DNA of 36,034 bases from Pseudonocardiales bacterium (lineage in GTDB: Bacteria; Actinomycetota; Actinomycetes; Mycobacteriales; Jatrophihabitantaceae): contig JAVEET010000219.1 of NCBI GenBank assembly GCA_030840295.1, positions 1-36,034 of the forward strand, written 5' to 3'. The number at the start of each line of letters is the position of its first letter. The stretch's first letter is position 1. Under the pieces are notes generated by a model. It had not been told where the DNA came from and did not search any database. It saw nothing but the letters and a program-made list of their open reading frames with translations. Shown here piece after piece: positions 1-12,276 of this stretch. Made by a program: the position numbers and the translations under genes.

Positions 1-107
1 TCAGCGAGCTCGTTCGTCAGTCGGCGGCCATCCTTGAGGATGAACTCTTCCTCGTCCAGGTCGAGGTCGGGTCCGATCACGTACTCAGTCTTCGTCTTTC
101 TCGCCAT
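1..107 (-). CDS. Ribbon-helix-helix (CopG/BrnA-like) antitoxin, N-terminal part, cut by window edge
   Basis: An open frame starts at an ATG (105-107) with a strong purine-rich ribosome site (AAAGGGG) upstream and runs off the left edge, giving 35 residues. The peptide contains GPDLDLDEEEF followed by LKDGRRLTNELA. That pattern is familiar from actinobacterial CopG-type antitoxins, which begin with a GPD-D-LD acidic stretch, then a D-GRR-T segment before the DNA-binding ribbon-helix-helix; recognition is from memory of the family. The start lies inside the 3' end of the upstream integrase-remnant frame (overlap 85-107), as expected where a toxin gene overlapped its antitoxin. The ribbon-helix-helix itself would lie outside the window, so the assignment is tentative. 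Confidence 0.5.
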   Translation of the reverse strand, partial: MARKTKTEYVIGPDLDLDEEEFILKDGRRLTNELA

Positions 108-576
108 CGCCCTGCCCCTTTCTGAACTCGGTCGGCATCGCGTGAATGACGGCCAGCGTCTCAGGCTTTCGGTCGTCCGGCACTGCAAACAACGCCGACA
201 GCGCCGCATCGTCGAGGATCGGCACTGCCTGCTCGGGAACCGAGGGCGGGCTCATCCGCTCCATCGGCGAGCGAGCGATCTCACCGTCGTCGGTCAGCCA
301 CTTGAAGGGCTGTAGCAACGAGCGGTAGTGCTTGGCCACCGTGGCCGGCGAGAGGCCGCGGTCGCGCATGTCGGCGAGATACTGCTCGACTGCTCGCGAG
401 CGACCGTTGCAGCCTGGTCCGGCCCCGTTGGCGACCATGTATTCGGTGAACGACTCCCCCACCGACAGGTAGGACGCGATGGTGGCCAGCGACCGACCAC
501 GGGCCCGCAGAGAGATCCGCCAGTCGGGCAGCAGCCCGCTCAGGGGCGCCAAAGCGGGCAATTTGAGCTTCGGCAT
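85..576 (-). pseudogene. Tyrosine integrase remnant lacking the catalytic domain, possibly fused to the tail of a toxin gene
   Basis: The 163-residue frame from the ATG at 576 (an upstream GTG at 603 is also possible) matches only the N-terminal SAM-like core-binding domain of a phage-type tyrosine recombinase. It shares the segment [10 protein letters not shown] with the full integrase at 11154-12065, and both continue with a proline-rich linker of the P-VPE--VP type. Similarity stops where the catalytic domain should begin (about residue 133, ALSALFAVPDD). No catalytic Arg, HxxR or Tyr follows. The last 25 residues (KPETLAVIHAMPTEFR onward) resemble the C-terminus of small toxins that precede antitoxins like the one at 1-107. 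I infer an in-frame deletion joining the two. It sits beside the 47-bp attachment repeat at 660-706, in the same arrangement as the intact integrase beside 12198-12244. It cannot recombine DNA by itself. Confidence 0.75.
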
Positions 577-583
577 ACATGAA

Positions 584-603
584 GTGTTACCCGTCTGTAA
601 CAC
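584..603. promoter_or_regulatory. Perfect 7-bp inverted repeat at the integrase-remnant start
   Basis: GTGTTAC and GTAACAC are perfect inverted copies separated by 6 bases. They lie just upstream of the remnant integrase's probable start codon at 576. The position suits an operator for an autoregulator or excisionase. This is inference from symmetry and position only. Confidence 0.4.
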
Positions 604-1556: not shown

Positions 1557-4500
1557 CTACAAACCCCTGCGGCGCAGCGCCTCGATCAATTGGTCAAAGG
1601 ACTCGTCCACCGCGTCACGGACAGCTGTTTTCACGGACGACGGGTCAGCGTTGTCGCCAAAGGCAACGCTGACTTGGACAGCGCCGGGGTGGACCACCAC
1701 CGGCCCCGCACCACCGCCGGATGCGCCCGGACCCCCGCCGGTGACCCGGGCCATTACGTCCGCTGACGAGCCGGTGTGCAGCGTCACCAGATCGGTCACG
1801 TCCTGCATCAGCATTTCCAGCCCCGGCATCGCGCCCCGAATCCCGTTCTGCAGACCGGCCATGATGGCCTTGCCTTCATCGACCAGCAGGACCTTATCCT
1901 TCTCGATCGGACCCTTCAAGGCCTTGATCTTGCCGGCGATGCCGCTGATGGTGGAGAACAACCCGCCCAGCATGGACGTGATGCCGCTGATGAACCCTTG
2001 GATCACGGCCTGGCCGGCACCGAACAGCAGACTGCCCAGGTTGCCCAACGCCGACACGATCTGGCCCGGCAGCGCCCTGATCAGCCCCAGCACAGTGGAG
2101 ATCCCCGACTGGATGGCTGACACCAGTTGACTCATGGCGGTCTTGACTGCGGTCACGATGGCGTTCCAGGCGGAGATGAAGATCGACTTGATGGTGTTGA
2201 GCGCGCTGGTGATGAAGGACTGCACTGCCGCCATAGCTGTCTGGATCACGCCGCGAATGGTGTTCCAGATGGTTGCGGTGAAAGCGGAAATGGCGGACCA
2301 CACGGTCTGCCACAGTGCCCGGACAGCGTTCAGCCCGGCGGTCAGCAGCGCTTGGATCGCGGCCCAGGTGGTTTGGATGACGGTCCGGATAGCGTTCCAC
2401 ACGGTGGTGGTGATCAGTTGGATCGCGGACCACACGGTCTGCCAGATAACCCGGATGGCGTTGAGGATTGTGGTGATCAGAGCCTGGATTGCCGTCATGG
2501 CCACGGTGATCACGGTCCGGATCAGGTTGATCTGGGTGACGGTGATCTGGGCGATGGCCGCCCAGAACGTGGTCCAGATGGTGCGGACCAGGTTGATGAA
2601 CGTGGTGATGATCGTCTGGATCGACTGGACGGCCACAGTGACCACGGTGCGGATCGTGTTCCAGGTGGTGGTGATGATGGTGACCACGGAGGCCCACACA
2701 GTGGTCCAGATGGTGCGGATCACGGTCAGCCCCGTGGTGATCGCGGTCTGCACGATCTGAATGGCGGTGGTTACCACTGTGCGGATGACGCTCCAGGCCG
2801 CGGTGACGATGGGGGCCAGGGAGTTCCACGCCACCGTCCACAGGGTGCGGATCACCGTCAATGCGACCGTGATCAGGCTTTGGACGGTGCTGATCCCCAC
2901 CTGAACCGCTGCACGGATAGCGGTCCATACAGCGGATACCACGGTGGTCAGGACGGTCCAGTTGGTGGTCCACATGGTGCGGATGGCCGCGAGCACGGTG
3001 GTGATCACCGTCCGGACGGCGTTCAGCCCGGCGGTCACCACCGGGGCGAGCGCTGCCCACAGGGCGTTCCAGATTTGCCTTATGGCCGCGAGGGGTGCGG
3101 CGAAGATCGCGCTGAGTGCCGCCAACTGGGCTCGGATGGTGGCCATGATGACGGACCAGACAGCGGAGAACACAGCCATCAGCCCGGACCACACGGTGCG
3201 CCACGCGGTTGCGATGGCAGCACCGATGGGGGCGAATACGCTGGCTACCTGGCCCAGCGCAGTCCTGATCGCGTTCATGATCAGTCCCCACACGGCGGAG
3301 AACACCGCGGTCAGGCCCGCCCACGCGGTGCGCCAGGCCAGCGCCAGCATCCCGCCCAGGGCCTGGAACAAGCCCAGGATGATCAGCAGCGCGCCTCGGA
3401 TGATTCCCTGGATTTCGGTCCAGGTCCCGGCGAGGATCATCCCCAGCCCCTGCCAGACCTTGCCCCAGTCCCCGGCGATCAGGGCCAGCACCACCTGGAT
3501 GATTCCCCGGATCACCTGTAGGGCACCGGAGACCATCCCGCTGATCACAGCCCAAACCCCGCGGACGATGGTTTCCATCGCGGGCCAGGTGGCGTTCCAG
3601 ACGGCCAGGATCACCTGCAGTGAGGCGACGATCAGCACGCCCATAATGGCCAGGGCCACCTTGACGGCGGTCACGATGTTGTTGAACGCGGCCACCACGG
3701 TGGGCCACATCCCCTGCGCCCATGTGATCATCTTCTGGCCCTCGGACACGAAGAACGCCACCACCACACCCCAGGCTTGGCGAAGCGCGTCCCACACGGC
3801 GCGGGCGGCGGCACCGAACCCGGCGATCACCCCCTGGATCCCGGACAGGCTGGAGGCGATGCTGGGGTCGCGGAACGCGGCCACCAGCAGGTTCCAGCCG
3901 GCCACGATGGCGTTGACCACGGGCATGATCCGGGCCACCATGCTCTGGATGAACCCGACGATTGCCGAGACCACTTGGTTGGTGATGTCCCGGATCCCGA
4001 GGAAGTTGGTGGCGTAGGCCACGGCGAAGAAGGCCACCGCGGCGATCACAATCGCGAACACTCCGACGATGGCGAGCAGCGCCGCGCCGGTGATGCCCAG
4101 GATCGGCACAGTCGCGGCCATGAACGTAGTCAGGACCGACCAGGCCCCGATCAGCAGCAGCACCGGCCCGACCAGAGCCGCTACACCGACGAACGCGCCG
4201 ATGGCGGCCAGTACCGGGCCGGGCAGCCTGGAGAACCACGTGATCAGGTCAGCAAGGCCCAGGGCGATAGCGCGGATGGCGGGCAGCAGCAGCATGCCCA
4301 ACCGGATGGCCACGGTTTCCACGGTTGATCTCAGGGCGTCCAGCGCACCTTTCGCGCCCATGTTGTAAGCGGCGGCCAGTTTTTGAGCCGCACCGACTTC
4401 GCCCACCTTCTGCGCCATGGTGTTGTAGGCGTCAGCCCCGCCCATGATCACCACACGGGCGGCGCGGATGGCGTCCGAGCCGAAGATGGTTTTCAGCGCG

Positions 4501-5360
4501 GCGTCCTGCTGGGCCGGGGACAAACCGCGCAGCGCGTTGGTGAACTGCCCGATGATGGCGGGCATCGGCAGCATATTGCCGTGACTGTCCCGGACGTTGA
4601 TCCCCAGATCGTTCATCACCTTGGCCGCGGTCTGGGTGGGTGCCTGCAGGCTGGACAGCATCGTCTTCAGCGACGTACCCGCGTCCGAGCCCCGGATGCC
4701 GGCGTTGGCCATCAGCGCCAGGGACGTGACCATATCGTTCACGTTCATCCCCGCAGCCGCGAAGGATGAGCCAGCGGCTTGCATGCCCAGGCCCAGGTCC
4801 TGGACGGACGCGCTGGAAGCATTCGCGCCCGCGGCCAGCATGTCGGCCACCGCTGTGGCCTGGCTGCCGGCCAGGTGGAACACGTTCAGGGCGTTACCGG
4901 CGATGGTGGCCGCGTCAGCGACCGAGATCTGACCGGCGGCGGCCAGCATCAGCACACCCCGCGCCGCGGTCATGGAGTCGTTGACGGACAGGCCGGACTT
5001 GGCCAACTCCAGCATGGCCACCCCGGCGTCCCGAGCGGACACCCCGGGAATGCTCACGTCCGCACCTAACTGCAGGGCGGTCTGGGACATCTGCTGCATC
5101 TGCGCCGAGGTGGCCCCGGTGGTGGCTTGCAACACCTGCATGGTCTGCTGGTAATTCGCGGCCAGCACCACCGCGCCGGCTGCAGCGGCCACCACCGGGA
5201 CGGTAATGCCCAGCGTCATCGCCGCACCGACACCCATCAAGCTGGACCCCGCGGCGGCGGTCTGCTGGACAGCGGAGTTGACGCGACCGAGCCCGGTCTC
5301 AGCCTGGACAGTGTCGGCCATCACTTCCACCATCAGCATGGCAGCCGTCAATCCTGGCAT
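1557..5360 (-). CDS. Phage tail tape measure protein
   Basis: The 1267-residue protein starts at an ATG 7 bases after GGAAGG. Residues ~55-280 match the TP901-type PhageMin_Tail core (Ala/Gly-rich, with segments such as VSARDAGVAMLELAKSGLS, GIRGSDAGTSLKTMLSSL and LSPAQQDAALKTIFGSDAIRA). Residues ~350-460 are strongly hydrophobic, a typical tape-measure membrane region. Residues 793-1100 form seven 44-residue repeats, each opening with (I/V)(R/K)xx(W/F) and a second Trp four residues later. 44 is four times 11, a hendecad helical period, and a 33-residue unit precedes them. The C-terminus holds a Gly-rich linker and an acidic helix. In tailed phages this protein sets tail length and aids genome delivery. 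Here it is the last gene of the operon and no other tail gene is present, so it probably assembles into a helper phage's tail; that is inference. Confidence 0.93.
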   Translation of the reverse strand: MPGLTAAMLMVEVMADTVQAETGLGRVNSAVQQTAAAGSSLMGVGAAMTLGITVPVVAAAAGAVVLAANYQQTMQVLQATTGATSAQMQQMSQTALQLGADVSIPGVSARDAGVAMLELAKSGLSVNDSMTAARGVLMLAAAGQISVADAATIAGNALNVFHLAGSQATAVADMLAAGANASSASVQDLGLGMQAAGSSFAAAGMNVNDMVTSLALMANAGIRGSDAGTSLKTMLSSLQAPTQTAAKVMNDLGINVRDSHGNMLPMPAIIGQFTNALRGLSPAQQDAALKTIFGSDAIRAARVVIMGGADAYNTMAQKVGEVGAAQKLAAAYNMGAKGALDALRSTVETVAIRLGMLLLPAIRAIALGLADLITWFSRLPGPVLAAIGAFVGVAALVGPVLLLIGAWSVLTTFMAATVPILGITGAALLAIVGVFAIVIAAVAFFAVAYATNFLGIRDITNQVVSAIVGFIQSMVARIMPVVNAIVAGWNLLVAAFRDPSIASSLSGIQGVIAGFGAAARAVWDALRQAWGVVVAFFVSEGQKMITWAQGMWPTVVAAFNNIVTAVKVALAIMGVLIVASLQVILAVWNATWPAMETIVRGVWAVISGMVSGALQVIRGIIQVVLALIAGDWGKVWQGLGMILAGTWTEIQGIIRGALLIILGLFQALGGMLALAWRTAWAGLTAVFSAVWGLIMNAIRTALGQVASVFAPIGAAIATAWRTVWSGLMAVFSAVWSVIMATIRAQLAALSAIFAAPLAAIRQIWNALWAALAPVVTAGLNAVRTVITTVLAAIRTMWTTNWTVLTTVVSAVWTAIRAAVQVGISTVQSLITVALTVIRTLWTVAWNSLAPIVTAAWSVIRTVVTTAIQIVQTAITTGLTVIRTIWTTVWASVVTIITTTWNTIRTVVTVAVQSIQTIITTFINLVRTIWTTFWAAIAQITVTQINLIRTVITVAMTAIQALITTILNAIRVIWQTVWSAIQLITTTVWNAIRTVIQTTWAAIQALLTAGLNAVRALWQTVWSAISAFTATIWNTIRGVIQTAMAAVQSFITSALNTIKSIFISAWNAIVTAVKTAMSQLVSAIQSGISTVLGLIRALPGQIVSALGNLGSLLFGAGQAVIQGFISGITSMLGGLFSTISGIAGKIKALKGPIEKDKVLLVDEGKAIMAGLQNGIRGAMPGLEMLMQDVTDLVTLHTGSSADVMARVTGGGPGASGGGAGPVVVHPGAVQVSVAFGDNADPSSVKTAVRDAVDESFDQLIEALRRRGL
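2061..2984 (-). repeat. Seven 132-bp (44-codon) repeats inside the tape measure gene
   Basis: The units start at residues 793, 837, 881, 925, 969, 1013 and 1057 with no change in spacing. DNA copies are diverged but keep recurring motifs such as GTGCGGAT and GCGTTCCA. Constant spacing despite divergence implies selection on length and helical register. Unit gain or loss would change the predicted tail length in steps of 44 residues. Confidence 0.85.
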
Positions 5361-5586: not shown

Positions 5587-7071
5587 TCATGCGGCGGACC
5601 TCGCGCTGGGGACACGCTTCGGGGCGCGGCACTGCGGACAGCGGATCGTGCTGCCCGGCTTGGCCATCGTGGTCCACCGATGCGAGCAGTGAGAGCACCC
5701 GACTGGCGTGCCCCGCCCCGGGTCGCCGGGCGGCGCATCGCAGACATCGGCGGTCACGGTGCGCATGTGTTCGGCCGTGTGTTCATATGATTTCGCGTCT
5801 ATGGGCGGTGTTGAACACATGGTTTGGCGTGTGTCAGCCTGCAGGATGTCCAGCCGCTCGTCGTACTCGGTGAAACCGGAACGGCCTTCGGCTGCGATCT
5901 CGGCGGCCCTTGCTGGGGAGATGTGAGCCAGTTGCACCCGCTCGAATTCGCCGGTCTCATCCACCACGGCCCGGCCGGCGACAGGTTCCACGGCCGGCGG
6001 CTGCCGGTCGCCGAACATCATCGTGGACAAGGCCACGTCGAGCTTGCCGCACGCCAGTTTGAACCCGAACTGTGCGCGGCCCTCGGTGCCGCTGGTGACG
6101 GTCGCGTTGGGCTGCTGGCAGCCCTCGACCACATGCAGGTCAGCGGCGCGGGCCTGGCGTAGCACGGTGGACAACGCCGACAAGGCCGGCGGCTGCCCGT
6201 TCACACCTCGAGGTTTCGTCTCCGACCAATCCTGCTTGACCGCGCCGACGAAATCCGCGCCCTCATCGATGATCAGCAGCCGACGAGGGCCGGTGGTGCC
6301 TTCCCGGTACCGCCGATCCATCTCGGCCTTGAAATCGCACACCACGCGCGCCATATCGGCGGCCGATGTCCAGACCCGCACATTGGGCAAGGCCAGGAAC
6401 TCATCGAAATCGTTGGACCGCTTGGCGTCGATGATGTCCACGATCGCGTCCGCTCTGCCGGCCTGGTGGGCCACGATGGCACGCAGCGCGGTGGTCTTAC
6501 CGGAGCCGGTACGCCCAGCGACGAGCGCATGCGGCTGGTCCGGCCGGGCTAGCTGCCAATACAGCGTCCGGCCGTCCCCATGCACCCCGAGCGGCACCCG
6601 GTCCCGACCGCCGGCCAACAGATCCTCGAACGCAACCAGGTCCGGCAGCACCCGCGGCGGAGCCTCCCGGACGAACGTCAGCCGATCGTGCAGGGCGTCA
6701 TGCTGCGCGCGCCACGTACCGCCGGCCAGGGCGTGGATCGTGCTGGCCAGCGTTTCCACCTTCGCAGCGGTCGGCACGAAGCTGCGGGGACAGCGCAACG
6801 CGATGGTTGTTCCGGTGGCCTGATCGTCCCGCGGCCACTGCACGAAACTGCCGGGCTCATCCGTGTCGCCGTAGCCGAGCACGGCGCGGGCCTTGGCCGC
6901 AAGCGACCGCGCGGCGGCGGTGCGGCGGAGGAAGCGCCGACGCACCCCACCCCACCCGAAGCGGTACAGGACCGCCACCGCGACCAAGGCCAGGCCGATC
7001 CAGGTCAGATGAGCGGCCAGCCATGTGACCACGGTCAGCACGGTGACGGGCCGGCCCGATCCTAGGATCAC
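5587..7071 (-). CDS. FtsK/SpoIIIE-type DNA translocase (TraB/TraSA-like) with zinc ribbon
   Basis: The 494-residue protein starts at a GTG directly abutting the TAG stop of the upstream gene, so the two are translationally coupled. Residues ~10-37 are one or two membrane segments. The motor domain carries Walker A GRTGSGKTT (186-194) and Walker B LLIIDE (265-270). The C-terminus has Cys459, Cys462, Cys478 and Cys481 spaced as a zinc ribbon. Proteins of this class are hexameric ATPases that move double-stranded DNA; in AICEs and Streptomyces plasmids they alone drive conjugal transfer. There is no FtsK gamma domain and no relaxase gene. In this element it lies between the small terminase block and the tape measure gene. 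It could serve conjugation-like transfer or DNA handling during helper infection; the sequence does not decide. Confidence 0.88.
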   Translation of the reverse strand: MILGSGRPVTVLTVVTWLAAHLTWIGLALVAVAVLYRFGWGGVRRRFLRRTAAARSLAAKARAVLGYGDTDEPGSFVQWPRDDQATGTTIALRCPRSFVPTAAKVETLASTIHALAGGTWRAQHDALHDRLTFVREAPPRVLPDLVAFEDLLAGGRDRVPLGVHGDGRTLYWQLARPDQPHALVAGRTGSGKTTALRAIVAHQAGRADAIVDIIDAKRSNDFDEFLALPNVRVWTSAADMARVVCDFKAEMDRRYREGTTGPRRLLIIDEGADFVGAVKQDWSETKPRGVNGQPPALSALSTVLRQARAADLHVVEGCQQPNATVTSGTEGRAQFGFKLACGKLDVALSTMMFGDRQPPAVEPVAGRAVVDETGEFERVQLAHISPARAAEIAAEGRSGFTEYDERLDILQADTRQTMCSTPPIDAKSYEHTAEHMRTVTADVCDAPPGDPGRGTPVGCSHCSHRWTTMAKPGSTIRCPQCRAPKRVPSARSAA

Positions 7072-7932
7072 CTAGAGCCGCCCGGCGATGCGGTGATTCC
7101 CATACGCTTCCGGCGGCACCGGCTGCGGACCGAGCAGATCAGCGCTGCCGGGCGTCATCGGCCGGGCGACCCGGTTCCCGTATTTCTTCATCCATTGCTC
7201 GTCGCGTTCCTCCGCCGTCCCGACCCACGGCTGAGCCCCTGAGCTCACCAGGAACGCCAACCGCTGGCGAGGTCCCGCCGGGAACGGGGAGTAGGTGCTC
7301 TGGTGCCGACCGGGCCACATCCCGCCGTACAGTTGCTCCAAATTCAGCACCTCCGCGAACTCGTCCTGGACGTCGAGCTCGACGTGATTAGCGACCAGCA
7401 CGGCCTGGGCGCGGCGGATGAGGCCGTAACGCTCGGCCAGCTTGTCGAACGCGATGGCGGCATTGCGGTGCTTCGCCTCGGCCCTCAATAACTGGGCGTC
7501 GGAGAAATCAGCCACGGCCTCGAAGGCGTCGAGATGTTTGGTCGCTTCGGCAAGCACTTCATCGAGTGCAGGCCGCAGGGCGGCCTCGATCACTTCGGCG
7601 TTACGGATGGCCGACGCCAACCTGTTCTGAGCCTGGCCCAGCGCTTCCTCATGCGCCGACAGCCAGATCTCCCGAGCCTCCAGGGCGCGCGTCTCAATGC
7701 ACACCACATCCGATGTTGGCCAAGCTTCGCCGGACATGGACGCCTCCACGATGTCCCGAATCAGGGTCTCTCGTGCGCCGGCCGGATCAGCCGGCGGCAT
7801 CGGAGGCTCAGCCCGTTCCAACCGCCCCAGGGCATCCCGCGCCTGCAGCACAGAATCCCCCAGCTTGTACGCGCCAGCGTCGTGGCCCGCCAGCACCGCG
7901 GACAACTTGTTCAATTCGCTGCTTCTTCGCAT
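7072..7932 (-). CDS. Unrecognised coiled-coil-rich protein of the mobile element (286 aa)
   Basis: A strong ribosome site (AAAGGAG) precedes the ATG. The protein is mostly helical by eye: residues ~75-190 are rich in Ala, Glu, Leu and Arg without Pro, consistent with a long coiled coil (for example NRLASAIRNAEVIEAALRP). The last ~85 residues are Gly/Pro/Trp-rich and look less regular (LYGGMWPGRHQSTYSPF and later). No signal peptide, membrane segment or nucleotide-binding motif is visible. It lies between the small terminase (38-bp gap) and the FtsK-type gene (abutting). The context suggests a partner in DNA packaging or transfer, such as an adaptor or a scaffold-modifying factor, but I do not recognise the family. 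Confidence 0.8.
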   Translation of the reverse strand: MRRSSELNKLSAVLAGHDAGAYKLGDSVLQARDALGRLERAEPPMPPADPAGARETLIRDIVEASMSGEAWPTSDVVCIETRALEAREIWLSAHEEALGQAQNRLASAIRNAEVIEAALRPALDEVLAEATKHLDAFEAVADFSDAQLLRAEAKHRNAAIAFDKLAERYGLIRRAQAVLVANHVELDVQDEFAEVLNLEQLYGGMWPGRHQSTYSPFPAGPRQRLAFLVSSGAQPWVGTAEERDEQWMKKYGNRVARPMTPGSADLLGPQPVPPEAYGNHRIAGRL

Positions 7933-7970: not shown

Positions 7971-8462
7971 CTAGCTGAGCAGGCGGCGCGGATCGTGGGG
8001 GTTGTGAGGGTCCGTTGGTGAGACGTGTAGGGCGGCCCGGTCGGACGGATTCATCCCGAACCTGCCGCCAATGGTCGTGATCAACTGGGCCGACTCACGG
8101 GCAATCGTCCAGCTCGGGTTTTTCGACAGCCGCGTCAACGCCGTGCCGTCCGCCAACACCCGGTACACGGACACGCTCGCCGTACCGTTCTCGGCCAGAT
8201 CAGCCATGGCCACCCGGTTGATTTCGAGAACCTCGCACAGAAGGCCGAAGGTGTCCACGTCCCAGCTGGTCAAAACGTTTTGAGTGATCAAATCCGGCGC
8301 CAACCGCGCCCAATGCACCTTCGCCGGCTCCGACAGCGACGACGGACACACGACATCGGCCGCGCTGGGTTGAGGCTCGTCCCTGTTGATCCGGGACGGC
8401 CTGGTCTCCCCGTGCAGCAGCCGAAGGGCGGTTGGCATCGGCGCCGGTCCGCGCTTAGCCAT
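7971..8462 (-). CDS. terS: Phage terminase small subunit, P27 family
   Basis: The 163-residue product begins MAKRGPAPMPTALRLLHGE, the usual opening of P27-family small terminases. It continues with a CPSSLSEPAKVHWARLAPDL segment, a helix around WDVDTFGLLCEVL, and the NPSWTIARESAQLI / GRFGMNPSDRAAL segment typical of the family's end. The ATG at 8462 is chosen because it follows AGGGG and matches family starts; an in-frame ATG at 8534 has no ribosome site. TerS recognises the packaging site on phage DNA and hands it to the large subunit TerL. No TerL is encoded here. Satellites such as SaPIs use their own TerS to redirect a helper's TerL and capsids to satellite DNA, and I infer the same role. 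Confidence 0.88.
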   Translation of the reverse strand: MAKRGPAPMPTALRLLHGETRPSRINRDEPQPSAADVVCPSSLSEPAKVHWARLAPDLITQNVLTSWDVDTFGLLCEVLEINRVAMADLAENGTASVSVYRVLADGTALTRLSKNPSWTIARESAQLITTIGGRFGMNPSDRAALHVSPTDPHNPHDPRRLLS

Positions 8463-8591
8463 GCCGATCACCCCTGGGGCGAATTCGAAAAACTTGTCTG
8501 CACCCAGACGCACTTGGGGGGCAGTCATGGCCATATCGGACGTAGGGGGTCATGCCCCACCCCTCGCGTGGACTGACGTGGTGGTTGGTGA

Positions 8592-8771
8592 TCACGCGGC
8601 GTCGTCTCCGTTCGGCGTCTCGTCAGAGTTGCTGGTGTCCGCGGGATCGTCCGTCGATGGGGCAGCGCCGAACAGACGGCGCGCGTGGTCCTCTTGTTGC
8701 TGGCGGCGGCGTTCGAGGTGGCCACGGATGAAGGTGCGCATCCCGTCCGCGGCGGGCGTGTCGTTGGTCAT
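8592..8771 (-). CDS. Tiny hydrophilic protein of the mobile element (59 aa)
   Basis: The ATG (8769-8771) follows a strong ribosome site (AGGAGG, 5 bases upstream) and overlaps the stop of the upstream tiny gene in an ATGA junction, which supports real translation. The product has a basic, Gln/Arg-rich helix (residues ~12-33, including RGHLERRRQQQEDHARRLF) followed by an acidic, Asp/Ser/Thr-rich disordered tail ending NGDDAA. No family is recognised. A basic helix with an acidic tail would suit a nucleic-acid- or protein-binding accessory factor; this is a guess from composition. Confidence 0.7.
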   Translation of the reverse strand: MTNDTPAADGMRTFIRGHLERRRQQQEDHARRLFGAAPSTDDPADTSNSDETPNGDDAA

Positions 8772-8941: not shown

Positions 8942-9715
8942 TCACCAGCCCCTGACTGGCCGCGCAACAGGGCTCAGCTCCGGCCGGCCGGTGTTGCGCT
9001 CGGGCAGCGGGTCGTCCTCCCAGCTACAGCGGTCCAGCCATGTGGCGGGGTGTGGAATGAATTCACGCTCGGGCAAGTTCGGATCGTCTCGATAGCGGCG
9101 AGCCGCGTCCAAGATCGTTTCGGCTGGAGTGCCCTTCTGAATCGCTTGGGCGAATGCAGTTTTGGCGCTGCCTTTCGCCTCGCGTCTGGGGTACGTGTCC
9201 CAAAACTCAGCGAAGGGATCTGAATCTGTGATCGGCTCGCGCGCTGCACCATGCTCCATGCCACCTGCTACATGCCACATGCTTAGCGTGCTCTTTTTTG
9301 CGTCCGGCTCGGATTCGTCTGCGCCTCGCTCAGATTCGTTTGCGTCCGGCTCGGATTCGTCTGCGCCTCGCTCAGATTCGTTCGGCGATGGTAGGCGAGA
9401 AGGGACCTTCGCTGGTTCGAGTCGCTGATGTTTCGCCAGCTTCGGCAAGAACAAATACACCGCGTTCCGCACTCGGTATCGGTGCGCCTTGCCTGCCTCG
9501 ATCAAGCAGTCGAGCATCTTCTCGATGTCTCCCGCGGTCAGGTCGTCGTCGTAAGCGAACAGCTGACCTTTCACGTACCGCGGATCACCTTGCAGCCGCC
9601 CGTGTTCGTCGGCCAGCCCCCACAGTCCGATGTACAACAGGCGGATGTCGCGGCTCAAGAGGGTGATCTCCTGATCGGCGAAAAACTCGGGCTTCACTGA
9701 TCGCATCCTCGACAT
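8942..9715 (-). CDS. Phage replisome organiser-like replication protein
   Basis: The 257-residue protein starts with MSRMRSVKPEFFADQEI. Its ATG shares one base with the upstream stop (TGATG). Residues ~1-100 are a winged-HTH-like domain (LLYIGLWGLADEHGRLQGDPRYVK, then DLTAGDIEKMLDCL) seen in phage replication initiators. A disordered linker contains a duplicated 14-residue unit. The last ~70 residues (FWDTYPRREAKGSAKTAFAQ to HPATWLDRCSWEDDP) match the DnaT/DnaD-like tail that recruits host helicase or loader in many phage initiators. It probably binds the element's origin and loads the host replisome. Plasmid-type RepSA or a primase is absent. This supports a phage-style replication strategy. 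Confidence 0.8.
   Translation of the reverse strand: MSRMRSVKPEFFADQEITLLSRDIRLLYIGLWGLADEHGRLQGDPRYVKGQLFAYDDDLTAGDIEKMLDCLIEAGKAHRYRVRNAVYLFLPKLAKHQRLEPAKVPSRLPSPNESERGADESEPDANESERGADESEPDAKKSTLSMWHVAGGMEHGAAREPITDSDPFAEFWDTYPRREAKGSAKTAFAQAIQKGTPAETILDAARRYRDDPNLPEREFIPHPATWLDRCSWEDDPLPERNTGRPELSPVARPVRGW
9300..9383. repeat. 42-bp tandem duplication in the replication gene
   Basis: Two copies (9300-9341 and 9342-9383) differ only in their final base. They keep the reading frame and encode two 14-residue units of the acidic pattern NESERGADESEPDA in the linker between the two domains of the replication protein. Near identity indicates recent duplication. Confidence 0.9.
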
Positions 9716-10080
9716 CAGGCACCACCGTCCGAAGATTGCTCGATGCCGCGCCACAGGCGAAGTAATCGGCCGTCTATAGGCGAGATCACCGCGCCGATGC
9801 ACTCGATCTTGCGGGCCTTCCGCGCGCCAGCCAGCAAGGCACCCCAACGGCAAGGATGGTCAGCCGGCAGCCCGACCAGTTCTTGGATCCGGTCGGCTGT
9901 GAAGGGCTGACCGGTCAGTGCCAGATGATCGATCGCGGACATGGTGACCGACCGAAACCAGGAGTCGGCGCGTTCCAGAGCCAGGTCCGGGCCAGTGGAG
10001 GTTAGACTTTGGTCTGTTGTTGTCGGGTGGTTCGGGTGGCGGTTTCTGTGGTGGGAGCCGCCCCTACCCGGCGGACTCAT
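9715..10080 (-). CDS. Small phage-type winged-helix protein (121 aa)
   Basis: The ATG at 10080 follows GGGGAG and overlaps the upstream stop (ATGA). Residues ~38-115 read as a compact domain with a SAIDHLALTGQPFTADRIQELVGLPADHP opening and a GRLLRLWRG ending. Actinobacteriophages carry a family of short proteins with the same plan: a helix, a G-PFTADD element, P-HPN-WG, an Ala-rich helix and a terminal V-VW strand. They sit near replication and regulation genes. A DNA-binding role is likely from the fold pattern but the specific job is unknown. The first ~35 residues are basic and probably disordered. Confidence 0.7.
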   Translation of the reverse strand: MSPPGRGGSHHRNRHPNHPTTTDQSLTSTGPDLALERADSWFRSVTMSAIDHLALTGQPFTADRIQELVGLPADHPCRWGALLAGARKARKIECIGAVISPIDGRLLRLWRGIEQSSDGGA

Positions 10081-10340
10081 CTCGACTCCCCGACTTGTGC
10101 TCGACGCCTTCGCGCCTGAGCCGACCGGAGCGCGAGGCCCGTGAAATAGGCCCGACGCGCCTGCTCAGCTCGCCGCACTCGGTCCTCCGGGGCCAGAACG
10201 CCAGCTGGATCGACTTCCTTCTCGAAGCGGGCCATAGATGCTTTCCGCGCGGGTGCGGTGTGCTGGGTTTCGTCCGCGACACGGGAATGCATCACCAGGG
10301 CGGCGCGGCGGGCGTGCATCGAACGTTCAGCTGGCGTCAC
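10077..10340 (-). CDS. Conserved small basic helical protein of actinobacterial elements (87 aa)
   Basis: The frame starts in an ATGA overlap with the upstream HTH gene and ends in another ATGA overlap with the next gene, so it is embedded in a coupled operon. The sequence includes ARKASMARFEKEVDPAGVLAPEDRVRRAEQARRAYFTGLALRSAQARRRR. This pattern (FE-EVDP-GVL-PEER-RRAE-AR-A-F--LAL-S--AR) recurs as a hypothetical protein in many actinobacterial phages and plasmids. It is likely all-helical and basic. A competing frame on the same strand (10064-10282) has no such pattern and was discarded. Function is unknown. Confidence 0.75.
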   Translation of the reverse strand: MTPAERSMHARRAALVMHSRVADETQHTAPARKASMARFEKEVDPAGVLAPEDRVRRAEQARRAYFTGLALRSAQARRRRAQVGESR

Positions 10341-10573
10341 CTCGCACCGCCGGGAACCATCGGCTGTTGGATCATGGAAATGATCTGCGCCCGTCGCACG
10401 AGAATGGTTCGAGGGCCGATCTTGTAGCCGTCAATCACTCCGGCCTTCGCCCAACGTCCGATCGTTTCCGGGCTCTTGCCTACCAGCCGGCCCGCTTCCC
10501 TCAGCGGGATTAGCTCCGCCTCTGCAACGGATGCCTGATCGTCTTGGCGCGCGACCACCGCGGCCTCGCACAT
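10337..10573 (-). CDS. xis: Excisionase-like helix-turn-helix protein
   Basis: The chosen ATG at 10573 (MCEAAVVARQ) has GAAGGA at good spacing; an in-frame ATG six codons upstream (10591) has no clear ribosome site. Residues ~20-65 form an excisionase/HTH_17 domain: LIPLREAGRLVGKSPETIGRWAKAG is the HTH, followed by GYKIGPRTILVRR as the wing. Xis proteins of this size bend DNA at attachment sites so that the tyrosine integrase excises the element. Here the gene leads the minus-strand operon, separated from the integrase gene by the regulatory region and one plus-strand gene. It could also act as the operon's regulator. Confidence 0.8.
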   Translation of the reverse strand: MCEAAVVARQDDQASVAEAELIPLREAGRLVGKSPETIGRWAKAGVIDGYKIGPRTILVRRAQIISMIQQPMVPGGAR

Positions 10574-10630
10574 GGTTTGTCCTTCGGCCATACTGGACCC
10601 GGCCCCTTCTCTGGTTGGGGTTTTCGAGAC

Positions 10631-10873: not shown

Positions 10874-11140
10874 ATGGACGAATACAAGCTCGAAATTTGG
10901 ACGCGGGGCGCAACCGAACCGGTGACCGTGGTGATGCCGGATGAGCCAGGAGCGAGCTCGCGAGATCGCTTTCACGGCGTCTGCGATGCCGTCGAAATCG
11001 GCAGAGCATCGGGCGCTGCGCTGCGCTATGTAACTTGGCAAGACGTGGGGCCTGGGGGCGGCTTTACGATTGACCCCGCGGACACCATCGAGGTCAAGCT
11101 GATAGGGCCAGATGGTGAAGAAAGCAGGACCTTCGACTAG
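10874..11140 (+). CDS. Hypothetical acidic protein of the mobile element (88 aa)
   Basis: The 88-residue frame begins at an ATG with only a weak ribosome site. The predicted protein is mixed alpha/beta by eye: strand-like stretches YKLEIWTRG, VTVVMPD, LRYVTWQDV and TIEVKLIGP, with acidic charge overall. It contains no membrane segment or known motif. It is transcribed away from the regulatory region and converges with the integrase gene (stops 13 bp apart). Its position between the candidate origin and the integrase suggests early or lysogenic expression. I do not recognise the family. Confidence 0.55.
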   Translation: MDEYKLEIWTRGATEPVTVVMPDEPGASSRDRFHGVCDAVEIGRASGAALRYVTWQDVGPGGGFTIDPADTIEVKLIGPDGEESRTFD

Positions 11141-11153
11141 TTGCGGCCCGAAG

Positions 11154-12065
11154 CTATAGCTTGTCGCCCAGGCCCAGGCGTCGGTGCGCGTCCCGGGCGC
11201 GCTCGTCAGCGGCGCTGGCCGCGTACCGGCCGACCATCTGCCTCGACTTCCAGCCCGCCAGCCGCATCAGGTCGTTCTCCTGACCGCCGGCCTGGAGCCA
11301 GGTGTGAGCGAAGGTGTGCCGGAACTGGTGCGGGTGCAAGTGGCCCAGGCCGGCCAGCTTGGCCCGGCGGTCCAACATCATCTTCAGTGCCTCGAACTTG
11401 AGCGGACCGAGGCGGCCCAGCCACAGTTCCGGCCGGTCGGCATACGGGTGCCGCCTGCGGGCTCGCAGATAGTTGCGCAGGGCCTTGCGGGTCTCCAGCC
11501 CGAACGGTACGGCCCTCAGGCGGCGGCCTTTGCCCATGACCACGGCGACGTCCTGCTCGAAATCGAGATCGGTCAGGGCGATGCCCATCAGCTCCGAGCG
11601 GCGGATACCGCAGTCGAGCAGCAGGCGGATCATCGCCGTGTCGCGGACCTCGGTGAACCGGGTGCCCTTGCACGCGGCGAGCAGCTTGCGCACATCCTCG
11701 GAGCTGATGACCGGCACAGGTTTCTCCGGCACCGCGGGCGGACGCATCTTGATGAACGGACTCAGTGCGATCACATCGGAGTCGGCCAGGAAGCGGAACA
11801 GCTGCTGGAGGGACCGGTAGTGCTTCGCCACGGTCGCGGCGCTGATGGTCGGCCGGTCCGACATCTCGGCGAAGAAGTTCTCCAGCTCGACGCGGCCGAT
11901 GTCCTGCACCAGGGTGGACCGCTCGGTGCGGATCAGGAACGCCAGCAGCTCCCGCCCACATTTGAGGTAGGACTCGATGGTGGACGGCGCGCGGTTGAGC
12001 GACCGTAGGTGCGTGGTCCAGTCGGACAGGTACTCGCTCAGGTCATCAAGATCTATGTCGGCCAT
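11154..12065 (-). CDS. int: Tyrosine recombinase (site-specific integrase)
   Basis: The 303-residue protein starts at ATG 12065 ([13 protein letters not shown]), preceded by GGAG; the frame is open further upstream but without support. Residues 8-100 are the SAM-like core-binding domain and 115-300 the catalytic domain. Catalytic residues are visible: Arg155 (GIRRSEL), Lys179 (MGKGRR), His246 and Arg249 (HQFRH), Trp272 (GW) and nucleophile Tyr281 (GRYA). It integrates the element into the 3' half of the adjacent tRNA. Its start is 133 bp from the 47-bp att repeat, the classic layout. It is homologous to the broken integrase at 85-576, and each lies beside a copy of the same att core. Confidence 0.95.
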
Positions 12066-12159: not shown

Positions 12160-12197
12160 ACACCGGCCCAGGGCAATGTAGGCCAGGAAATGCCTGG

Positions 12198-12244
12198 GAT
12201 TGTGGGGCGGGTCGGGCTCGAACCGACGACCCAGGGATTATGAG
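12198..12244. repeat. tRNA-proximal attachment site (47 bp)
   Basis: This copy is identical to 660-706. It includes the tRNA from the discriminator base (12203) through the anticodon (12240-12242). Element DNA begins to its left. The offset between the copies is 11,538 bp, which is the predicted size of the excised circle. Confidence 0.92.
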
Positions 12245-12276
12245 TCCCCTGCTCTAACCAGCTGAGCTACCGCCCC
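12203..12276 (-). tRNA. tRNA with CAT anticodon (elongator Met or lysidine-type Ile)
   Basis: The cloverleaf is complete on the minus strand. The 7-bp acceptor stem is GGGGCGG with CCGCCCC, followed by discriminator A; the D arm holds AGCTCAGCTGGTTAGAGC; the anticodon stem is GGGGA with TCCCT around loop CTCATAA (anticodon CAT); the T arm is GTCGG/CCGAC with loop TTCGAGC. The sequence has no initiator-type features, so it is elongator tRNA-Met or the tRNA-Ile that needs TilS; the anticodon stem resembles the Ile type. No CCA is encoded. Its 3' half is the element's integration site. Confidence 0.93.

Follow-up and report, generated by a model that had tools for sequence, protein, structure and literature searches.

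The 36,034-nucleotide stretch of DNA analysed here (the window) is the entire contig C147 of a 4.65-Mb genome in 375 contigs. It carries an element of about 11.5 kb that we interpret, with a probability of roughly 70%, as a PICI-like phage satellite integrated in a tRNA-Met gene, with a small terminase subunit (TerS) for the large subunit (TerL) of a helper phage and a tape measure protein for a helper-built tail. Because TerS and the tape measure are present without the motor, the shell, and the other tail parts, the element most likely spreads by borrowing these from a helper virus, as judged from its gene content.

Borders and genes of the integrated element

The element is bounded by exact 47-bp direct repeats that lie 11,538 bp apart. 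The features of the window are as follows.

85-603, minus strand: N-terminal integrase remnant (Pfam, PHROGs), outside the element, left of attL
660-706: attL, 47-bp exact copy of the 3' part of tRNA-Met (exact direct repeat)
1557-5360, minus strand: phage tail tape measure protein, 1267 aa (PF10145, E = 1.8e-48)
5587-7071, minus strand: FtsK/SpoIIIE-type ATPase, 494 aa (PF01580, E = 1.6e-6, 28.2 bits, cut-off 24)
7072-7932, minus strand: helical protein, 286 aa (no Pfam or NCBIfam family)
7971-8462, minus strand: P27-type TerS, 163 aa, intact (PF05119, PHROG 83; start from alignment)
8592-8771, minus strand: 59-aa ORF upstream of TerS (gene caller; upstream GGAGG, a good ribosome site)
8942-9715, minus strand: replication-initiator-like protein (PHROG 2149, replication initiation protein, E = 3.6e-30)
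10337-10591, minus strand: HTH protein, excisionase/AlpA-like (PF12728 HTH_17, E = 1.2e-4, below the cut-off)
11154-12065, minus strand: tyrosine integrase (PF00589, E = 1.8e-29)
12198-12244: attR, the other 47-bp copy, overlapping the intact tRNA-Met gene
12202-12276, minus strand: tRNA-Met (CAT), intact, the integration target (ARAGORN)

A 21-base pattern of the tRNA, with up to two mismatches allowed, occurs at only two places in the genome. Except for three short plus-strand ORFs, all called genes of the element lie on the minus strand, in the order integrase, HTH/excisionase-like gene, short ORFs, initiator-like gene, TerS, helical gene, FtsK-type ATPase, and tape measure. The integrase ORF opens at 12176, with a coding start probably at 12065 (gene caller). 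Profile matches to the initiator-like ORF begin at residues 47 to 49, i.e., at an ATG near 9715, and PHROGs assigns this initiator to a phage family. The HTH protein also matches PHROG 66 (excisionase and transcriptional regulator; E = 1.5e-4), and the 59-aa ORF matches no NCBIfam family. The integrase remnant at 85-603 shares 40% identity with the element integrase over 125 aa. Because this kindred remnant lies outside attL, the tRNA-Met site was probably occupied more than once, the remnant being a likely trace of another element.

The sequence-only reading of this DNA had placed TerS at 7971-8462, and these coordinates are exact. The minus-strand ORF at 7971-8534 (187 aa) holds a TerS whose start we place at 8462 from an alignment with eight relatives (MAKRGPAP... 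in the window, MGKRGPAP... in the relatives). The protein matches PF05119 (Terminase_4; E = 7.9e-16, 58.7 bits, cut-off 24.7) and PHROG 83 (terminase small subunit; E = 9e-25), and it scores slightly below the NCBIfam cut-off for TIGR01558 (P27; 40.7 bits, cut-off 45.6). A TerS profile search against the PDB gave TAL-effector repeat and photosystem matches alone, which we judged spurious. TerS, the helical gene, the FtsK-type gene, and the tape measure gene are intact and collinear, with gaps of 38, 0, and 226 bp. That TerS is followed by an uncharacterised gene and an FtsK-type ATPase had been recognised before and is borne out by the 286-aa helical ORF and the PF01580 protein. The tape measure and the att repeat, both of which matter, were absent from that reading.

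The family scans covered the ORFs of the element other than the plus-strand ORFs 823-1451 and 10874-11140; for the ORFs 8592-8771, 9715-10080, and 10077-10340, this was the NCBIfam scan only. A TerL reference set gave no match in the window at E ≤ 1e-5. A tblastn search of the element for a TerL remnant, with 33 structural ORFs and references, gave chance-level matches alone (best E = 0.038), in agreement with the earlier claim that TerS stands here without TerL. The one PF03354 TerL of the source genome is on another contig, C110. Among the families in Pfam, PHROGs, NCBIfam, and the tblastn references, the element shows no recognisable gene for a portal, a capsid, lysis, or any other tail part; specifically, Phage_capsid, portal, and protease had no match (Pfam, PHROGs, tblastn), and neither a tail assembly chaperone nor a baseplate hub was found among the scanned ORFs (Pfam, PHROGs, NCBIfam). 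The gene caller placed no gene within the 226-bp gap ahead of the tape measure.

Such a gene content could also result from decay of a siphoprophage that lost the block from TerL to the tail tube, the distal tail genes, and the lysis genes and kept TerS and the tape measure. Both proteins belong to ordinary phage families and stand in phage order, and orphan or broken TerS genes do exist: 5 of the 28 TerS matches from other genomes in the order survey described below hold a stop, and the TerS of locus L203 is an orphan. However, tblastn and reference matches revealed no broken structural remnant in the element. The genes that it does carry are uninterrupted and collinear, and TerS and the tape measure are separated by two intact ones. 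Moreover, because the 47-bp att repeats are exact, great age of the element is not to be expected. We therefore regard a decayed prophage as unlikely.

The 286-aa protein is all-helical in a single-sequence AlphaFold model of low confidence (pLDDT 54). When it was compared by hhalign with two helical proteins together, one encoded beside the TerS of locus L163 and one beside the tape measure of locus L091 (both loci are described below), the probability was 80.9 (E = 1.3e-5, 88 columns); the pairwise E values were 1.5e-4 for L091 and 0.007 for L163. No close sister of the helical gene was found in the viral contigs or the phage collection, and the 397 genomes of the order gave weak partial matches at most. 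A capsid or scaffold function was considered and set aside: the protein has no family match, and a model of this quality does not suffice for a fold search.

The FtsK-type ATPase has a Walker A motif (GRTGSGKT) and, by hydropathy, one hydrophobic N-terminal segment, and it matches FtsK in the PDB (E = 1e-5). FtsK/HerA motors are used by some viruses. Nothing supports the ATPase as a substitute packaging motor here, and its hydrophobic N-terminal segment argues against this role. Matches were found in 105 of 72,556 plasmid records (E limit 1e-8) versus 7 of 50,697 phage records (E limit 1e-5). Since the protein thus resembles actinobacterial plasmid proteins more often than those of phages, an AICE-like ancestry is possible, and the protein may have been retained, as a DNA translocase, from an ancestor that was integrative-conjugative. 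AICEs of actinomycetes carry an integrase, an excisionase-like gene, a replication gene, and an FtsK-type translocase, and the element shares these four components (the last by its PF01580 match, with a predicted transfer role). Unlike AICEs, it carries TerS and a tape measure.

It is conceivable, then, that the element is itself AICE-like and integrative-conjugative, its ATPase moving double-stranded DNA between cells, with TerS and the tape measure as passengers or as anti-phage functions. In addition to the plasmid-like FtsK/SpoIIIE resemblance, L163 unites TerS and a helical gene with FtsK-like (710-aa) and DUF2637 proteins. On the other hand, the scanned ORFs of the element hold no Spd-like family (Pfam, NCBIfam) and no DUF2637-like gene, the initiator comes from phage families, and conjugation offers no role for a tape measure of 1267 aa. 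MOB-suite predicts 82 of the 105 matching plasmids to be non-mobilizable, a typing that is not expected to cover FtsK-type transfer. A purely conjugative element is thus quite unlikely. A dually mobile element, i.e., an actinomycete integrative element that would have retained an FtsK-type translocase of double-stranded DNA for cell-contact transfer and acquired TerS and its own tail ruler for travel in phage particles as well, is unlikely; the Saccharothrix locus L163, with TerS, helical, FtsK-like, and DUF2637 genes between repeats, would then be a second, independent form of it.

Relatives of TerS and the candidate helper

In the order survey, TerS matches were found in 21 of 397 genomes, the source genome included. 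TerL was detected by tblastn in 16 of the 28 loci around these matches (in one as a fragment); one of the 28, L072, is a mere continuation of another locus. The genus (9 genomes) and the family (24 genomes) hold no TerS relative outside the source genome, and a class-wide search added three genomes of 394, all with TerL. In the named genomes, 65 TerS loci were collected, of which 56 have a TerL match (alignments shorter than 200 aa in 4 cases) and 9 have none, and TerL is on the locus in all 80 kept TerS loci of the viral contigs (out of 233 relatives). The 80/80 and 56/65 counts uphold the earlier statement that a P27-type TerS normally precedes terL. That a TerS apart from TerL is the hallmark of satellites was put too strongly: a satellite is supported here, but other TerL-less loci resemble prophage relics, for example L203, where an orphan TerS lies among chromosomal genes beside a GntR/FCD regulator. 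In one genome of the order, G345, five TerS matches are present (L054, L056, L061, L065, and L069). TerL accompanies one of them and a TerL fragment another, and the rest look like prophage relics.

The best cellular TerS matches are those of L163 in Saccharothrix sp. NRRL B-16314 (54% identity) and L197 in Streptomyces sp. 378 (53%), both without TerL. L163 is flanked by a 44-bp repeat at tRNA-Lys, with copies 13.3 kb apart. It encodes an integrase, a DUF3987 protein, a helical protein, and TerS, and then, on the opposite strand, the 710-aa FtsK-like protein (recognised from the sequence by eye, with no Pfam match) and a DUF2637 protein. L197 encodes an integrase, an HTH protein, a capsid protein (PF05065), and TerS, and its contig stops 1.2 kb past TerS. 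The question of whether the closest TerS homologues come from TerL-less islands or from phages with TerL thus has a divided answer: the two best cellular matches lie in TerL-less integrated elements, but the TerS of phages L228 (57%) and L230 (51%) is accompanied by TerL. A terL remnant in sister elements, which the sequence-only reading took as a sign of recent decay, was not found (best E = 0.15 in L163 and 0.049 in L197). A further point against a decayed prophage is that the nearest cellular relatives, too, belong to compact elements that lack TerL and have att repeats or an integrase. No sister with the full gene set of the window element was found.

Two further TerL-less loci have a capsid gene as well as TerS. 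In an Acidimicrobiia MAG (L210, 8165-10480), a capsid gene is followed by TerS, with an integrase-like ORF nearby (by eye). In L070 of the order survey (G198, contig C29), the genes are integrase, DUF3631 protein, TerS, prohead protease, and capsid, a layout that we take to be phiRv1/phiRv2-like.

TerS phylogeny was inferred twice. The first tree, with 49 rows (the window and 48 TerS ORFs of 140 to 200 aa from the 65 genome loci), joined the TerS of the window, L163, and L197 at 99/99. For the second tree (68 rows), phage TerS from at most 21 loci hand-picked for spread, plus L230, were added, and the long rows L214 and L220 were dropped beforehand. Here, the window TerS, a long branch (0.88), pairs with phage L228 (99/76) and L163 with phage L230 (100/98), both pairs lying within a 100/99 group with L197. 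When the three TerL-less rows are constrained to a single clade, the tree is disfavoured (p-AU = 0.02); that group had been chosen with the first tree already in view. A satellite-only TerS lineage was thus withdrawn, its group having been broken up once phage TerS were added.

The TerLs of phages L228 and L230 are 57% and 54% identical to the Dumbo TerL. In our reading of the second tree, TerS may have passed repeatedly between satellites and phages of a group whose TerL is of Dumbo type; this mixing agrees with several captures of helper-type TerS and less well with a single decayed prophage. The probable helper is a phage with a TerL like those beside the L228 and L230 TerS, i.e., of Dumbo type, rather than the resident prophage. 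The latter (L005/L006/L009) is a siphoprophage apparently split across the end of C110 and the start of C25, with a TerS-like ORF, TerL, and a 1428-aa tape measure (34% identical to that of the element over 305 aa); it is the sole other locus found in the genome with TerL or a Pfam tape measure. As a helper it is disfavoured by low similarity, its TerS being about 20% identical to that of the window (E = 0.39) and its TerL 27 to 29% identical to the L228 and Dumbo TerLs.

TerS and the tape measure, if free in the cell, could also act as decoys that poison the helper motor and tail assembly, the element being an anti-phage island with self-packaging in a minor role. Tail assembly is a published defence target (PMC11364771, PMC12987554). 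However, the window TerS retains residues common to its TerL-paired relatives: 33 alignment columns, including the C-terminal LL of RLLS, are invariant in it and in the eight aligned relatives, which are mostly located before TerL, whereas no terL follows the window TerS. The integrase, HTH, and initiator genes likewise point to a mobile life. Such an island is very unlikely.

Tape measures in the window and in other elements of the order

The tape measure of the element, in addition to its PF10145 match, matches PHROG 1272 (E = 1.8e-107) and TIGR01760 (E = 8.1e-58). Tape measure proteins are expected to show an 11-residue periodicity, and the middle of the protein does so: the identity reaches 0.24 and 0.29 at lags of 11 and 22 residues, respectively, and stays within 0.04 to 0.16 at the remaining lags between 5 and 29. 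A look for repeats, clt-type transfer repeats being a feature of AICEs, showed that the largest families of ≥14 bp lie mostly within this gene.

A search of the order gave 40 tape-measure loci, most of which have a normal-looking row of tail genes (gene calls read by eye). L132, L144, and L148 (genomes G295, G166, and G287) share the order protease-like gene, 348- to 351-aa gene, and tape measure, the protease-like gene being named by PHROG in L132; L148 carries TerS and a Terminase_6 TerL besides. These three small elements look like a family of tape-measure-bearing satellites. Kinship between their 348- to 351-aa genes and the helical gene of the window was rejected (hhalign probability 0.1). 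On contig C69 of genome G198 (L091/L092), a tRNA cluster is the site of two adjacent elements, both with a large tape-measure-like gene. One has a helical gene and a 1353-aa tape measure. The other has an integrase, AAA_25, a capsid, a 24-bp bordering repeat, and a 778-aa gene whose tape-measure-like label comes solely from partial similarity to the tape measure of L132. Judging from these loci, satellite tape measures appear to be no rarity within the order, as seen in a small reference set rather than by a formal count.

Proposed mode of spread and comparison with known satellites

Satellites hijack capsids and packaging, and TerS picks the DNA and passes it to TerL. For the element as a PICI-like satellite, we propose the following course. 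Once a helper siphophage infects the cell or is induced, the element would excise and replicate by means of its own initiator. Its TerS would bind a site in the element DNA and dock on the helper TerL, and helper proheads would be filled with element DNA. The element tape measure would replace that of the helper in helper-made tails, giving chimeric tails whose length it would set. Tails measure 0.15 nm per tape-measure residue, and this value would give about 190 nm.

Both halves of this course have precedents. In SaPIs, the satellite TerS redirects the helper motor, as described in PMC6092414. In PLE11, satellite tape measures were demonstrated to form chimeric tails, replacing that of the helper and setting tail length (PMC12987554). 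By analogy, we infer packaging by helper TerL and tail chimerism for the window element.

Among known systems, the TerS-bearing SaPIs and PICIs of Staphylococcus and relatives resemble the element in being small and att-bounded, with an integrase, a replication gene, and their own TerS without TerL, the motor being supplied by the helper (PMC6092414). The element has the PICI features of att repeats with an integrase, an initiator-like gene, and TerS, the last being present in a subset of PICIs; TerL, lysis genes, and a full structural set are absent among the families in the scanned libraries and references. Unlike SaPIs and PICIs, it has a tape measure, an FtsK-type ATPase, and an actinobacterial host, and no known capsid-resizing gene or Stl-like divergent repressor was recognised in it. 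The master regulator of PICIs is a divergent Stl or Rpr or else AlpA or MerR; the element has one HTH_17/excisionase-like gene, which is co-directional and below the Pfam cut-off. Capsid-forming PICIs have their own capsid, protease, and portal/adaptor genes, which the element does not (Pfam, PHROGs, tblastn). Candidate mycobacterial PICIs, also actinobacterial, have a partial structural set and an integrase often at a tRNA, but are defined by a capsid gene, of which the element has none; the term "tape measure" does not occur in PMC10654092, where these candidates are described. Vibrio PLEs, like the element, encode a tape measure without a full tail set; theirs comes with a tail chaperone and a baseplate hub (PMC12987554), neither of which was recognised in the element, which has TerS. 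L163 is similar to the element in its TerS, the lack of TerL, the TerS-adjoining helical gene, the FtsK-like gene, and the repeat at a tRNA, and differs in having no tape measure, in its DUF3987 and DUF2637 proteins, and in another integrase and tRNA.

According to PMC12987554, tail replacement by a satellite was first reported in March 2026, for Vibrio PLEs, and tape measures are predicted in PLE-like elements and some cf-PICIs. The open-licence PMC literature that we found describes no actinobacterial satellite with both TerS and a tape measure. As a putative TerS-bearing satellite, the element stands out for having a tape measure and an FtsK-type ATPase alongside TerS. If our interpretation is true, the element encodes just two specificity parts, one for the DNA to be packed and one for tail length, with the two roles cleanly separated. 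Helpers could in turn be predicted from TerS kinship, given that satellite and phage TerS are intermingled in the tree.
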